Assembly (NCBI GenBank): GCA_018606805.1
Contig: JAGYWI010000010.1
Location: 56,602 to 120,601 of the forward strand
DNA length: 64,000 nt
Direction: 5' to 3'
Source: Candidatus Magnetomicrobium cryptolimnococcus
Lineage (GTDB): Bacteria; Nitrospirota; Thermodesulfovibrionia; Thermodesulfovibrionales; Magnetobacteriaceae
The notes under the pieces are model-generated. The model had not been told where the DNA came from and did not search any database. It saw nothing but the letters and a program-made list of their open reading frames with translations. Made by a program: the position numbers and the translations under genes. Positions 1 to 64,000 of this stretch are shown here, piece by piece (the first letter of the stretch is position 1; every line of letters starts with the position of its first letter).

Positions 1-393
1 ACTATCATTATTTCTAAACCAAAACTCCTTTTGTGCCCATGAGGTATCGGAGTATTCTATAGATTCAGCAACGATAGTACCCCCGCCGCTTACGGCAGTG
101 CTTATTACAACTTTGCCGTTACACTGTGCCTTTTTTACATAAAATCGCACCTTATAGATATTGTGTGGTTTGACGCTAATAGCAGTTGTATTTGAAACGC
201 TACCGGCATTTGTGCCATCGGCTATACATTTAACAAAACCTGTTGTGTTATTAGCACCAGCTCCAGAGTCCCTTACTGTACCAGCAACCTTAGTCCACCC
301 GCTATCGTCTGTCCCAAAGTCCCCGTTTGTTAATAAGTTTGTGTTTATACCATTAATCTTATTTCTAAGTCCTGTAGATATTCTTAAGGCCAT
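1..393 (-). CDS. Partial phage tail/carbohydrate-binding-like protein (3' end outside window)
   Basis: The frame is open from an ATG at 393 to the left edge, giving 131 residues beginning MALRISTGLRNKINGIN. A GGAGGAG ribosome site lies about 8 nt upstream. The segment NGDFGTDDSGWT followed by alternating beta-type residues resembles the start of CBM4/9-like carbohydrate-binding jelly-rolls often found in phage tail proteins. It is the last visible gene of the minus-strand phage module, 60 nt after the com-like gene, so a tail fibre or adhesin role is likely but inferred. It carries no palindromic element in the visible part. Confidence 0.6.
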   Translation of the reverse strand, partial: MALRISTGLRNKINGINTNLLTNGDFGTDDSGWTKVAGTVRDSGAGANNTTGFVKCIADGTNAGSVSNTTAISVKPHNIYKVRFYVKKAQCNGKVVISTAVSGGGTIVAESIEYSDTSWAQKEFWFRNNDS

Positions 394-454
394 AGCATTT
401 ACTCCTCCATAATATAATATTGGCCTTCGAGAGACTCTAATAAGCTTTATTTAC

Positions 455-565
455 TTAATTTTTTACAACATTTACAGTTTTACAACGTGGGCATTTGATT
501 TCAATAAATATAGCCTCGCCCAAAAACAACAGCCTGCGGCACTTAGTACACCTGTTTTCTTTCAT
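455..565 (-). CDS. com: Com-like zinc-ribbon protein (36 aa)
   Basis: A 36-residue protein too short for most gene callers. It has two Cys pairs: RCTKC near the N-terminus and CPRCKT near residue 25, joined by a hydrophobic stretch and a GEAIFIEIK segment. This matches the Mu-like prophage Com family, a zinc ribbon that in phage Mu binds mRNA and activates translation of the DNA-modification gene mom. The start at 565 follows the stop of the upstream tail gene by 8 nt, with an AGAGGT site overlapping that stop, so translation is probably coupled. No mom-like gene is visible downstream before the window edge, so its target is unknown. Confidence 0.75.
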   Translation of the reverse strand: MKENRCTKCRRLLFLGEAIFIEIKCPRCKTVNVVKN

Positions 566-573
566 AAGCAATC

Positions 574-1437
574 TTACCTCTTAAAAACAATAGGGGTTTC
601 AAAAAGTTCAGCATCCTTTCCTTTAAAAAAATATACATGACTGGTTGTTTCAACAGAGATACCACCGTCTGGATAAGCCCTTAAACGTGTAATAGGGGCA
701 TCAAAGGTAAACCCGGAATTCGATAAATCAAACACTTCGTAGGCAAATAGCTCCGAGTACCAAACCGTACAGTGCTTGGCAACATATAAGCGGCCGTTAT
801 AGTGTTCTATTAGGCTTGAAGGCGGGGGTGGTTTAAGCCCTTCTGTTGTAAGGACATTGCCAAGCGTAGATTGACTACTATAATTAAATACGCCATAGTC
901 ATCACCGCCATGCTGGTTACTTTCCTTTGTTAAAAGGCAAAGTGGCCCGTCATTTACCAAAGATAGGTATATATTCACAGTGCGGACATCCGGGTCTTTT
1001 GAAAATCGGTACTTAATGCTAATACCACCCATTGACAGGTCTATCAGTGATAGTATGGAAGCCCCGCTTTCTTGTCCATCCCGCCGCTCGTAAGTAAGGG
1101 CTAATTGATATAACCCTGATAGCAGACTGCCTGTCATACCACAAAGTCCCGGCGGCAACGGTACTTCTAATCCCCAAGAGCGGCTTTTAACCGTAACATT
1201 ACCGTTACTTTCAAGCACACCGCTTAGCACACCATCGGAGTAATACACCTTTCCTTCTACCAACAGGTACGACATCGGCCGTCCACTACAAAATCCACTC
1301 CTTACGGTAGACACGGAGTAATCATCATTAAGGGCTTTTAAATCATTTCCTTGTCTAAAGACGCAAAATCCGCAACCACTATAAATCGAATGGATGTTAC
1401 TATCTGTATTTATAGATGTATCCATTACCATTGTCAT
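574..1437 (-). CDS. Phage tail/stabilisation-like structural protein
   Basis: A 287-residue soluble protein rich in beta-type segments, with repeated short motifs such as GKVYYSDGVLSGVL and NGRLYVAKHCTVWYSE that suggest a propeller-like fold. Its place directly after two head-tail adaptor-like paralogues matches the position of gp10-type stabilisation/tail-tube proteins in P22-like podophages; this is inferred from order and general appearance. An AGGAGGGG site 8 nt before the ATG supports the start, and the ATG directly follows the stop of the upstream gene. Function uncertain beyond phage structural. Confidence 0.55.
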   Translation of the reverse strand: MTMVMDTSINTDSNIHSIYSGCGFCVFRQGNDLKALNDDYSVSTVRSGFCSGRPMSYLLVEGKVYYSDGVLSGVLESNGNVTVKSRSWGLEVPLPPGLCGMTGSLLSGLYQLALTYERRDGQESGASILSLIDLSMGGISIKYRFSKDPDVRTVNIYLSLVNDGPLCLLTKESNQHGGDDYGVFNYSSQSTLGNVLTTEGLKPPPPSSLIEHYNGRLYVAKHCTVWYSELFAYEVFDLSNSGFTFDAPITRLRAYPDGGISVETTSHVYFFKGKDAELFETPIVFKR

Positions 1438-62047: not shown

Positions 62048-62421
62048 GTAAGAAAACCAAGCTTGAAATAGACCTCGAACTAGCCCATAAGATTCACGAA
62101 AGAAGTAAATTACGGCCATTTATCATAATCGTATTAATACTATTTGGTGTTTTTAGCCTTTTGTTTTACTTCAAACATCAAAAACAAAGGGCTGTTGAGC
62201 TTGAATTAAATGAGCTGTATGCTACGTATTCGAAGGTCAAGCTGGAGCTGGAGTTTCTTAAAAGAGAATGTAAAAATGCAACCGGTGTGCAAGCTAAAAA
62301 AGATAAAAATTTTCCATCATCTACGGTATCAATAAATGATAATGGCGGTAACGGTGGGGCTGCTGCAAATGGGACTGTTAAAAAGGCAATGACCCCTCCT
62401 ACTAAAATAATAATTCGATAA
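62044..62421 (+). CDS. Small bitopic membrane protein, unknown
   Basis: A 125-residue protein, GTG overlapping the upstream stop (GTGA). Basic N-terminus, one membrane helix (FIIIVLILFGVFSLLFYF, about 25-42), a short coiled coil (ELELNELYATYSKVKLELEFLKRE) and a low-complexity tail. The helix plus coiled coil layout recalls FtsB/FtsL-type septum proteins, but no family match is claimed. Confidence 0.5.
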   Translation: MSKKTKLEIDLELAHKIHERSKLRPFIIIVLILFGVFSLLFYFKHQKQRAVELELNELYATYSKVKLELEFLKRECKNATGVQAKKDKNFPSSTVSINDNGGNGGAAANGTVKKAMTPPTKIIIR

Positions 62422-62424
62422 CAG

Positions 62425-63282
62425 ATGAGTATTTTAAATATTAAAGAGGGTGTGGAGGCACACCTCCCTGTGTGTCTACACACCATTGTAGAGAAAAAAA
62501 AAGCAAGGCTTGATACCCAAAAAATGCGCACTCCAATTAGTGAATTAAAATCCCGTATAACTGAAGTCCCCCAAAGGAGAGATTTTGCCGCCTCAATTGA
62601 AAGAAAACGTGCTACTAATATTAAGTTTATCTGTGAGCTTAAGAAGGCGTCTCCATCAAAGGGACTCATACGGCCTGATTTTAATGTCAAACAGATAGCC
62701 TCTATTTACAGCAAAAAAGCCGTTGATGCCGTTTCCGTATTGACAGAGGAAGATTTCTTTCAAGGACATCTGGATTATATTAAAATAGTGAAAGAATGTG
62801 GCCGATTTCCGGTTTTAAGAAAGGATTTCATATTTGATGAATATCAGTTATACGAATCGTGCATATACGGCGCAGATGCACTCTTGCTAATTGCAAGTCT
62901 CCTTTCAATATCGCACGCCGACCACTTGCTTGGGTGTGCTAAAGAACTCGGTCTTGATGTCTTGTTTGAGGTACACGACTTTAAAGAACTGGAGATGGCT
63001 CTCTTACTCGATGTACCGATTATCGGTATAAATAACCGTAATTTAAAGACCCTTGATATTGACTTAAATACAACATTTAGTATGTTAAAAGATATACCAG
63101 AAGGCAAAATTGTAGTAAGTGAAAGCGGTATTAGCAATAGAGATGCAGTTTGCAGTATGGAAGCAAGCTCAGCAATACATGCACTATTAATTGGTACATC
63201 AATAATGAAGGCAAGCGATATAGAAGGCAAACTTGATGAACTTAAAAGAAAAGATAAAGAAAAAGATGGTAGTCCTGAATAA
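62425..63282 (+). CDS. trpC: Indole-3-glycerol phosphate synthase with N-terminal inserts
   Basis: A 285-residue TIM-barrel enzyme of tryptophan synthesis. Motifs: CELKKASPSKGLI (catalytic Lys), LTEEDFFQGHLDYI, LRKDFIFDEYQLYES, IIGINNRNLKTL, VVSESGI and LIGTSIM. Two abutting palindromic elements (62447-62484) are read as GVEAHLPVCLHT between residues 8 and 22, just before the VEKKKARL helix that starts the protein, so the fold should be unaffected. Lone trp gene here. Confidence 0.92.
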   Translation: MSILNIKEGVEAHLPVCLHTIVEKKKARLDTQKMRTPISELKSRITEVPQRRDFAASIERKRATNIKFICELKKASPSKGLIRPDFNVKQIASIYSKKAVDAVSVLTEEDFFQGHLDYIKIVKECGRFPVLRKDFIFDEYQLYESCIYGADALLLIASLLSISHADHLLGCAKELGLDVLFEVHDFKELEMALLLDVPIIGINNRNLKTLDIDLNTTFSMLKDIPEGKIVVSESGISNRDAVCSMEASSAIHALLIGTSIMKASDIEGKLDELKRKDKEKDGSPE

Positions 63283-63542
63283 ACATTTTATCCTTCCAAT
63301 ATTTTATATATATACTTTATAAAAAATAACGCCTTGCAATTAATAATATCACACTATATACAATAATGCAACAATAAAAAATATCAAATCACCTAAATTA
63401 CTTCTTAACAACTATGGCAAAATGCCATGAAATGAGTATCAAAATACATATTTATAACAGTTTTTTGTATACCAAAAATCAATTATTTTTTGTATAGCGG
63501 CAAATCTAAAATCTGGTATAATAATATTGTGAGGAATTAAAA
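63283..63542. other. AT-rich spacer
   Basis: No gene. Contains a TATAAT box at 63517-63522, 21 nt before the Rpn start, similar to the box before the Rpn pseudogene at 16461. Confidence 0.5.
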
Positions 63543-64000
63543 ATGTCAAAAGAATACGACAAGGTTATTAAAGAGCTGTTAAAAGATACGGTAGCTGCAT
63601 TGCTTGAAAAGATTACGGGCGTGGATATAAGCAAGGCTGAGTTAATAGAGCCGAAGATGCAAATTACGGATGAACGGGAAGCCGATTTTATACTCAAGGC
63701 GCAACTTAAGGATGGCAGCCAAGAGATTTATCACATAGAATTTCAAGGGTGTGTAGGCACACCTCCCTTCCACAAACGACAACAACATGGGCTATCGGAT
63801 GCTGCGCTACTGGGTTTATCTAAGGCAGGTTTATAAGCTGCCTGTTAAGCAATATGTGGTTTATATCGGTAAAGAGCCTTTAAAGATGAAAAGTAACATT
63901 GATGAAGATAACACAACCCACAGCTACACCATAATAGACATGAGGACAGTTGATTGTGAAAAATTCTTATACGCAGATAGACCAGAGGAGGTCATTATTT
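63543..64000 (+). pseudogene. Rpn-family nuclease gene frameshifted by a palindromic element (3' end outside window)
   Basis: Intact start MSKEYDKVIKELLKDTVAALLEKITGVDISKAELIEPKMQITDEREADFIL ... EIYHIEFQ, the nuclease core with the acidic EFQ motif. A 25-nt insertion at 63747-63771 (GGGTGTGTAGGCACACCTCC + CTTCC) then shifts the frame. Removing it restores the Rpn continuation NDNNMGYRMLRYWVYLRQVYKLPVKQYVVYIGK, which stays open to the window end. As it stands the gene yields a 97-residue truncated protein. A recently inactivated gene, unless frameshifting rescues it. Confidence 0.85.

Follow-up and report, generated by a model that had tools for sequence, protein, structure and literature searches.

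The 64-kb stretch of Candidatus Magnetomicrobium cryptolimnococcus (Nitrospirota) analysed here, which we refer to as the window, carries many copies of short palindromic units of two classes, class A (21 nt) and class B (23-24 nt). The units are a real dispersed family of inserted palindromic sequences that is found in no other sampled genome, and the window is a hot spot for them. Paralogous places with and without a unit, inserts of exactly the length of the class A unit and units nested within other units were identified in the same genome. We put at about an even chance (0.5) the possibility that the units are a non-autonomous element whose folded single strand is mobilised in trans by a predicted transposase of the HUH/Y1 type; they are likely to be among the smallest mobile DNA elements known. 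Template switching at hairpins is the main rival.

A dispersed family of palindromic units

The strict core, GTGYGNNGGCRCAC, has 65 matches in the window when both strands are searched. The class A unit is 21 nt long with the motif GGTGYGNNGGCRCACCTCCCT, and the class B unit begins with GTGCGNNGGCGCACTCCCGT, followed by a variable A-rich tail, with spacings of 23-25 nt in arrays. Non-overlapping sequences within 4 substitutions of either full motif (21 nt for class A, 20 nt for class B) were called as units. This gave 83 units at 45 sites (merged within 60 nt) and 5 units in the reversed sequence; the 83 include three doubtful units (at 10503, 16419 and 21060, with 3-4 substitutions) that are absent from the feature list below. 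A prediction made earlier from the sequence of the window (here the original prediction) had proposed about 80-90 units at about 50 sites, which the count bears out. The 21-nt class with a CTCCCT tail and the 24-nt class, the loop variants TAGG, GAGG, AAGG and GGGG, the GTGCGTGAGGGCAC form, both tails and both orientations all occur in the window, also as proposed. Most of the 83 units are in two clusters: 55 are at 4-24 kb, which covers phage genes and the stretch that follows, and 19 are at 36-48 kb, from gyrB to lnt.

The units are not restricted to this contig, a question raised with the original prediction, as 478 strict cores were found across the 3.59-Mb genome and the core is present in 42 of the 52 sampled stretches of at least 8 kb. 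The density of strict cores is 10.2 per 10 kb in the window versus 1.24 in a sample from outside it (120 cores in 966,352 unmasked bases of the same genome). Values for the remainder of the window's contig (C5) are 2.5, 2.5 and 5.4 per 10 kb (sampled stretches L054, L112 and L113), and no other stretch exceeds 3.5.

The full motifs are present in 148 (class A) and 46 (class B) copies in this genome and in none of 394 other sampled genomes of the phylum, which answers the suggestion that relatives be scanned. A loose core had 1-4 matches in each of 13 of 59 relatives and none in the other 46. An Rfam scan of the window returned no match at gathering scores. Two motif scans of public genome contigs, a collection from which this genome may be left out, found no matches, and two scans of viral contigs found one isolated 20-nt match, judged to be due to chance, and none, respectively. 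No account of the units or of such repeats in Nitrospirota was among the papers listed in literature searches, which left out most subscription papers. Close homologues of the DnaN protein encoded in the window, which by reading carries dnaA, dnaN and gyrB, are named as Candidatus Magnetominusculus and other Nitrospirota, which points to a Nitrospirota host.

Relatives contain repeats of other kinds. A reversed control pattern matched 42 times in G011, 17 times in G014 and 6 times in G002, all due to one tandem array per genome and not to the unit family; these three genomes (genus g3; L019-L029) each contain a long tandem array with a spacing of approximately 65-66 nt and the motif CACGCGGGAGCGTG. 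Counts of 14-mers in stretches of G001 (104 kb), G003 (80 kb), G005 (200 kb) and G006 (199 kb) gave other repeats, and no word of the unit family was among the top words listed. Words of the GGGACTCGTCCCTTTG repeat are common to G005 (L162-L171) and the genome studied here (G000), and this repeat is perhaps older than the units.

Insert length, nested units and target preference

Each of 170 sites was compared with paralogous places lacking the unit, within the sampled DNA, and a filled/empty partner was found for 40. At single class A sites, the largest gap in the alignment is exactly 21 nt in 24 of 29 pairs, and the other five have gaps of 22, 18 or 28 nt or split gaps. As 21 nt is the length of the unit itself, this leaves no room for a target duplication. 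The six single class B sites have largest gaps of 23 nt (three), 20 nt (two) and 21 nt (one), and five array sites show longer or split gaps.

Individual cases illustrate the differences. Within the window, a local duplication (approximately 17988-18595 and 20458-21072; 89.8% identity over 635 aligned columns, with gaps counted) has a class B insertion in one copy only: the unit at 20805 is missing at 18350, the net insert is 23 nt and the flanks are 100 and 99% identical over 150 and 147 nt. The comparisons of window 63748 with L077 11699, and of L077 11575 with window 63871, involve one paralogous pair in which each copy has a different insert. In the pair L095 1490 and window 48101, an ATPase-like gene is found with and without the peptide REVCLHT, and the class A site at L113 5935 has its empty partner at window 16543.

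Units are also found within other repeats. Class A lies within class B at a single bond, ACGGGAG^TGCGC, in all four exact cases (8 positions tested), and within class A-like units at GGGAG^GTG in four cases (the only position searched). The class A unit at 34623 interrupts a repeat of the repetitive extragenic palindromic (REP) type with a CGTC-like tag (label by reading). An older intergenic hairpin repeat of approximately 70 nt (CCCTTTTAGGCAAAAGGG...CCTAAAACTTTTGTCCTG) often hosts units, for example at L058 959, L063 8022, L077 2678 and window 24500, among others.

Insertion is site-preferring. Removal of similar flanks reduced the isolated class A units from 53 to 34 and the class B units from 29 to 24. 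C is found at -4 in 21 of the 34 class A flanks (14 of 16 in open reading frames (ORFs); background 0.18) and A at -2 in 24, and AAG directly precedes class B in 14 of 24 (background 0.021). The targets therefore show a strong preference and not a fixed tetranucleotide. When the flanks of non-coding class A units (18 sites) were joined, the mean minimum free energy was -6.9 versus -3.2 kcal/mol for random non-coding windows, and many of these targets are themselves repeats. No excess of hairpins was seen in the targets of coding class A (16 sites, p=0.74), coding class B (8 sites, p=0.99) or non-coding class B units (16 sites, p=0.12). As the excess holds only for non-coding class A, a hairpin in the target is not required.

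Units within genes

Placement in genes or spacers was judged using mechanically defined ORFs, which cover 87% of both the window and the outside sample. In the window, 46 of the 83 units are deep inside ORFs, 13 are near an end and 24 are outside, though some of the 46 (e.g. those at 10772-11012 and 12009-12090) precede a likelier start codon. Outside the window, 37 of 178 units are deep, 9 are near an end and 132 are outside. With a stricter set (no more than 2 substitutions), 19 of 75 units in the window are outside ORFs, 43 deep and 13 near an end, versus 104 of 139 outside ORFs, 27 deep and 8 near an end in the remainder of the sample; 8 of these 27 are in ORFs of less than 120 aa, which are possibly spurious. 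Given how few units outside the window lie in ORFs despite 87% coverage, the family is depleted from coding DNA overall, as REPs are. The claim that units pervade genes is therefore true of the window only.

Entry into host and phage genes in frame, which had also been predicted, is supported; dnaN and lnt have in-frame inserts relative to other genomes, and units also lie in a portal-like phage gene. The DnaN insert at residues 203-238 was compared with 18 other genomes of the family: 15 gave matches split in two at this position, one gave a later fragment only and two gave none. An AlphaFold2 model of DnaN (40 sequences) has a mean predicted local distance difference test score of 85.3, with values below 50 only in residues 93-102 and 206-237, and these two segments are the two insert regions. 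Low confidence there is expected because no relative has that sequence. In the Lnt alignment, each of the 11 aligned relatives (14 had a match) has gaps across 16 and 21 columns where units are located, and both classes are present in lnt. Other tagged genes (Pfam/PHROG) include uvrC, a gene for a UvrD/PD-(D/E)XK protein, a glycosyltransferase family 9 gene, histidine kinase genes, lolA, trpC and the portal-like gene. The units in the window are as follows.

2118..2138 (+), class A, end of phage structural gene
5120..5140 (-), degenerate class A-like unit (3 substitutions), ORF 4336-5385
5372..5391 (+), class B
5534..5554 (-), class A, ORF 5364-5765
5671..5690 (+), class B (2 substitutions), ORF 5364-5765
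7606..7625 (+), class B, 824-aa phage tail-like ORF, AAG on both flanks
8184..8203 (-), class B, AAG on both flanks
10772..10813 (+), two class A-like units, 5' part of tail-like ORF, probably upstream of the real start
10865..11012 (unstranded), composite array, class A in both orientations adjoining class B, probably upstream of the real start
11549..11605 (unstranded), class B (-) and class A (+)
12002..12162 (unstranded), class B array, spacing 24, class A nested in one B unit (ACGGGAG^TGCGC)
13306..13431 (+), six tandem class A, period 21, portal-like gene
13563..13583 (+), class A (2 substitutions), portal-like gene
13614..13657 (-), two class B, spacing 24, portal-like gene
14386..14428 (-), two B-like units (TGAGGG form), spacing 23
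16502..16521 (+), class B; empty partner of the L113 5935 class A site 22 nt on, at 16543
18157..18176 (-), class B in DUF3568 gene (VRGRTPVK)
18466..18486 (+), class A, common to both copies of the local duplication
18596..18616 (-), class A, appears nested in a B-like unit
20611..20630 (-), class B, same flanks as 18157-18176
20805..20824 (+), class B, in one of the two local duplicates
20943..20963 (+), class A, duplicate of 18466-18486
21205..21314 (+), class A then four class B, spacing 23, upstream of GGDEF gene
21384..21403 (+), class B, AAGG on both sides, N-terminal part of GGDEF gene
21575..21595 (-), class A in GGDEF gene (REVCLHT)
21703..21723 (-), class A in GGDEF gene
21776..21816 (+), two class A in GGDEF gene
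22339..22407 (+), two class B (spacing 24) and a degenerate A, GGDEF gene just after the Pfam match
24670..24689 (+), class B, outside ORFs
34623..34643 (+), class A in CGTC-like REP (GACGAAG^CAATCCC; label by reading), empty partner known
37895..37934 (unstranded), inverted unit pair upstream of gyrB
39268..39310 (-), degenerate A and B-like units
41479..41535 (unstranded), class A array in dnaN (within residues 203-238), missing in relatives
41879..41899 (+), class A in dnaN (REVCLHT, residues 96-102), low model confidence
42221..42289 (+), three tandem units between dnaA and dnaN
45343..45410 (-), three class B, spacing 24, in lnt, missing in aligned relatives
45638..45681 (+), two class B, spacing 24, in lnt (16 aa), missing in aligned relatives
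45983..46003 (+), class A in lnt (REVCLHT)
46110..46130 (-), class A in lnt
46703..46746 (-), two B-like units (TGAGGG form), spacing 24, outside ORFs
51261..51316 (unstranded), two inverted class A near lolA start, before the Pfam match
57745..57765 (+), class A adjoining a GTAG-type REP (label by reading)
61617..61637 (-), degenerate class A (2 substitutions), AMMECR1 gene
62449..62483 (unstranded), class A and a partial unit at trpC start, before the Pfam match
63748..63768 (+), class A in short ORF without Pfam match; unit-less paralogue in L077, net difference 22 nt

Tandem class B units inside ORFs have a spacing of 24 nt in all six arrays, and the 13 arrays outside ORFs have spacings of 23 (10 arrays), 24 (two) or 25 nt (one). 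The 12047 array includes one more spacing of 24, at 12119, which the ORF rule narrowly excludes. The window is the source of every one of the six ORF arrays, and the arrays at 10945 and 12047 may precede the real starts, so that effects of region and of coding on the spacing are not separable. This leaves four sound arrays, located in the genes for the portal-like, GGDEF and Lnt proteins. Class A is read in all six frames and class B in five of six, which bears on the frame phase that the original prediction had proposed to examine. In the one frame where a TAGG loop makes a stop, 0 of 8 class A units have this loop, versus 44 of 111 in the other frames (p=0.02, a weak test).

Some further features of these genes were noted. 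At 574-16114, the minus strand has a unit-rich series of genes for phage structural proteins (major head, portal-like, terminase and tail-like), and the tail-like ORFs at 5729-8203 and 8210-11092 have internal tandem repeats (SWSHYDAGYNDGY...FVPYxNGSYHGDVLRYDTQGAFNA). In one relative, Lnt (G004:C84:10719-12386) is a 650-aa open frame with large gaps relative to the query, which suggests that it has inserts of its own.

Movement of the units and comparison with known systems

Were the units moved by a transposase, cuts at its two ends would release the strand carrying the hairpin, which would be rejoined on the 3' side of a short target in the manner of IS200/IS605 elements. The discrete gain of 21 nt, the constant ends, the preference on the 5' side and the nesting are as expected of a hairpin that is cut and joined in this way. 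Read on the opposite strand, a unit would consist of a stem-loop preceded by a short tag without pairing (AGGGA or ACGGGA), as in a REP with a different tag. Inserts inside genes would be translated as peptides of 7-8 residues, and those that shift the frame or introduce a stop would not persist. Loss of harmful inserts fits the depletion from ORFs outside the window, the 24-nt spacing of class B in ORFs and the lack of TAGG in the stop frame. We infer that a transposase drives the movement, that its substrate is single-stranded and that the family may still be active. Rather more tentatively, the free-standing 21-nt hairpin may be the complete substrate, which an unrecognised enzyme would insert in single-stranded form, with no duplication of the target, on the 3' side of a tetranucleotide that begins with C. 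The places of insertion would be essential genes, older REPs and its own copies. If this were the case, no smaller transposable unit would be known, and the hairpin would parasitise other palindromic repeats.

Several observations weigh against movement by a transposase. When the alignments are taken over the 40-nt flanks, only 13 of the 29 class A pairs differ by a net 21 nt, with small indels nearby in the rest, and independent insertion events are fewer than the counts because many partners belong to few intergenic repeat families. The flanks of class B can be read as a 3-nt duplication or as a 23-nt insert without duplication. In the L095 pair, CCTCCCT is already present in the empty copy; this sequence is the tail of the unit itself, and its presence is also in keeping with template switching. 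The class A hairpin begins right at the 5' end of the unit, so that a left guide like that of IS608 would not fit on that strand. No strand or orientation bias of the units was seen, in a test that is weak and in a genome where GC skew follows gene strand. The location of all six ORF arrays in the window and the weak stop-frame test count here as well.

The search for an enzyme also belongs on this side, as no cognate enzyme was found: PF01797 gave a single sub-threshold match in the genome, a gene resembling those for REP-associated tyrosine transposases (RAYTs). The gene also scores below the cut-off for REP_Tyr_transpos (56.5 of 80 bits). It was rejected as the source of the units, since the repeats around it are of the GTAG type and its 3.2-kb locus contains no unit. 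The co-occurring IS200/RAYT-type enzyme that the original prediction had proposed to look for was thus not linked to the units. The RAYT-like gene (L091, G000:C68:132845-136024) has GTAG-type REP copies inside its ORF and a partial duplicate of a segment upstream. The genome also has two reverse transcriptase matches. There are 97 ORFs within 300 nt of non-coding units, and ten were scanned, yielding one Rpn-like Transposase_31, two without a family and seven in housekeeping or unknown-function families.

The Transposase_31 gene (L113 5943-6773) is beside seven units and, from this position in the sequence, is a candidate partner. Stretches paralogous to its locus at window 16.5 kb, window 63.5 kb and L077 11.6 kb also carry units; the ORF at window 63543 has no Pfam match and its likeness to Rpn was judged by eye. 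Another gene of stretch L113, at 7161-10127, is predicted to encode a eukaryotic-type carbonic anhydrase domain fused to HAMP and methyl-accepting chemotaxis domains.

Replication-linked template switching would need no transposase: a strand stalled at a hairpin would copy a unit from elsewhere and return, and arrays would grow by slippage. Tandem arrays with array-specific tails, nested units, the hairpin-rich non-coding class A targets (-6.9 versus -3.2 kcal/mol), the CCTCCCT tail in the empty L095 site and the lack of an enzyme all suit this explanation. However, the 21-nt gap at unrelated sites (24 of 29), the preference for C at -4 and A at -2, and coding targets without excess hairpins do not (junction microhomology was judged by eye), and we regard it as unlikely, though better placed than the alternatives that follow.

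It is improbable that the units are a REP family served by the genome's own RAYT, with a divergent tag (AGGGA or ACGGGA for GTAG) 5' of the hairpin. The size and shape are REP-like, one strand has a tag and a stem-loop, and a RAYT-like gene exists; moreover, passages of PMC8266576 indicate that the need for GTAG varies and that some TnpA-REP enzymes tolerate changes. However, the same passages describe GTAG as instrumental for the Escherichia coli enzyme, the surroundings of the RAYT-like gene carry GTAG repeats and no unit, and GTAG or CGTC is within 8 nt of only a few units. When 214 units were tested for GTAG, CTAC, CGTC or GACG within 8 nt, the 119 class A units gave 14 counts and the 95 class B units gave 5, and CGT|C was at the unit end in 7 class B units (counts may overlap).

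A miniature inverted-repeat transposable element (MITE) of a DDE transposon with terminal inverted repeats would account for the AAG direct repeat often found at class B flanks. However, the class A gaps cannot accommodate a duplication and the whole unit is taken up by a single hairpin. No transposon with units at its ends was noticed among the sampled repeats, where no systematic search was made; this origin is very improbable. Repeats selected for a coding or regulatory role in place of selfish insertions are more improbable again: some could act as RNA hairpins in leaders, but both orientations, six of six class A frames and five of six class B frames are used, and unrelated genes, phage genes and spacers are affected. 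Assembly artefact or contamination can be dismissed almost entirely, because although the assembly has 91 contigs and was analysed without reads, strict cores are in 42 of 52 sampled stretches of at least 8 kb, the inserts in conserved genes are in frame, and the genome is 98.5% complete with 0.56% contamination.

Movement by a transposase acting in trans can be set against systems already described. REPs, comprising CGTC and GTAG palindromic repeats, are described in passages of Di Nocera et al. 2013 (PMC3733652) as 20-40 nt stem-loops that have many copies, are mostly intergenic and are in some cases species-specific. The same passages describe REPs inside genes, many of them DNA repair and replication genes, and CGTC REPs without a dedicated transposase. 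The units resemble them in being stem-loops of 21-24 nt in many copies (478 strict cores), mostly intergenic outside the window (104 of 139), sometimes in replication or repair genes and, like CGTC REPs, without a dedicated transposase. They differ in lacking the GTAG or CGTC tag and, relative to GTAG REPs, in not flanking the RAYT-like gene. In addition, class A nests in REP-like repeats and in its own family, and a target preference and genome-internal empty sites were found here.

The cyanobacterial small dispersed repeats (SDRs; Elhai 2008) are approximately 20 bp and thought to be mobile, and SDR5 inserts precisely into HIP1, according to descriptions in citing papers (PMC3116915, PMC2884548 and PMC4390886). 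By those descriptions the units are similar in being approximately 20 nt and dispersed. They differ in being from another phylum and in having a preferred, not fixed, target, and in-frame insertion in essential genes is not part of the citing descriptions. The statement in the original prediction that no described family this small enters coding regions is not supported as it stands, given the intragenic REPs of 20-40 bp (in the passages of PMC3733652) and the SDRs of approximately 20 bp.

Rickettsia palindromic elements (RPEs) are, in the portions of PMC2229807 that describe them, 105-146 bp, palindromic and inserted in frame in conserved genes; the shorter RPE-4 and RPE-6 are counted as CGTC repeats in passages of PMC3733652. 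The units share the palindrome and the in-frame position in conserved genes (here dnaN and lnt) but are 21-24 nt in length.

Insertion of IS200/IS605 elements creates no target duplication. Their substrate is a hairpin and the target tetranucleotide stays in the left flank, as set out in parts of PMC5934647 and PMC8266576. The units resemble these elements and RAYTs (HUH/Y1) in having a hairpin, a short preferred sequence 5' of the insert and, for class A, no duplication (24 of 29). They differ in that no enzyme is linked to them, the 5' side of the class A hairpin has no left guide like that of IS608 and the target is degenerate. The lack of a target duplication at class A also separates them from MITEs.

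As the family lacks the GTAG/CGTC tag and the size of RPEs, and fits the loose description of SDRs, we place it with short palindromic mobile repeats, as a variant of these and not as a kind of its own. The way in which REPs and small dispersed repeats move has long been an open question, and here the insert length, ends and target preference are defined well enough for enzymes to be tested. A genome can evidently bear many in-frame insertions, including in the genes for the replication clamp and a lipoprotein acyltransferase. Special to this family, relative to those above, are the empty sites within the genome, a target preference common to unrelated sites and nesting in other repeat families; together with an insertion that separates near-identical duplicates, they provide a record, internal to one genome, of how a 21-nt sequence spreads.

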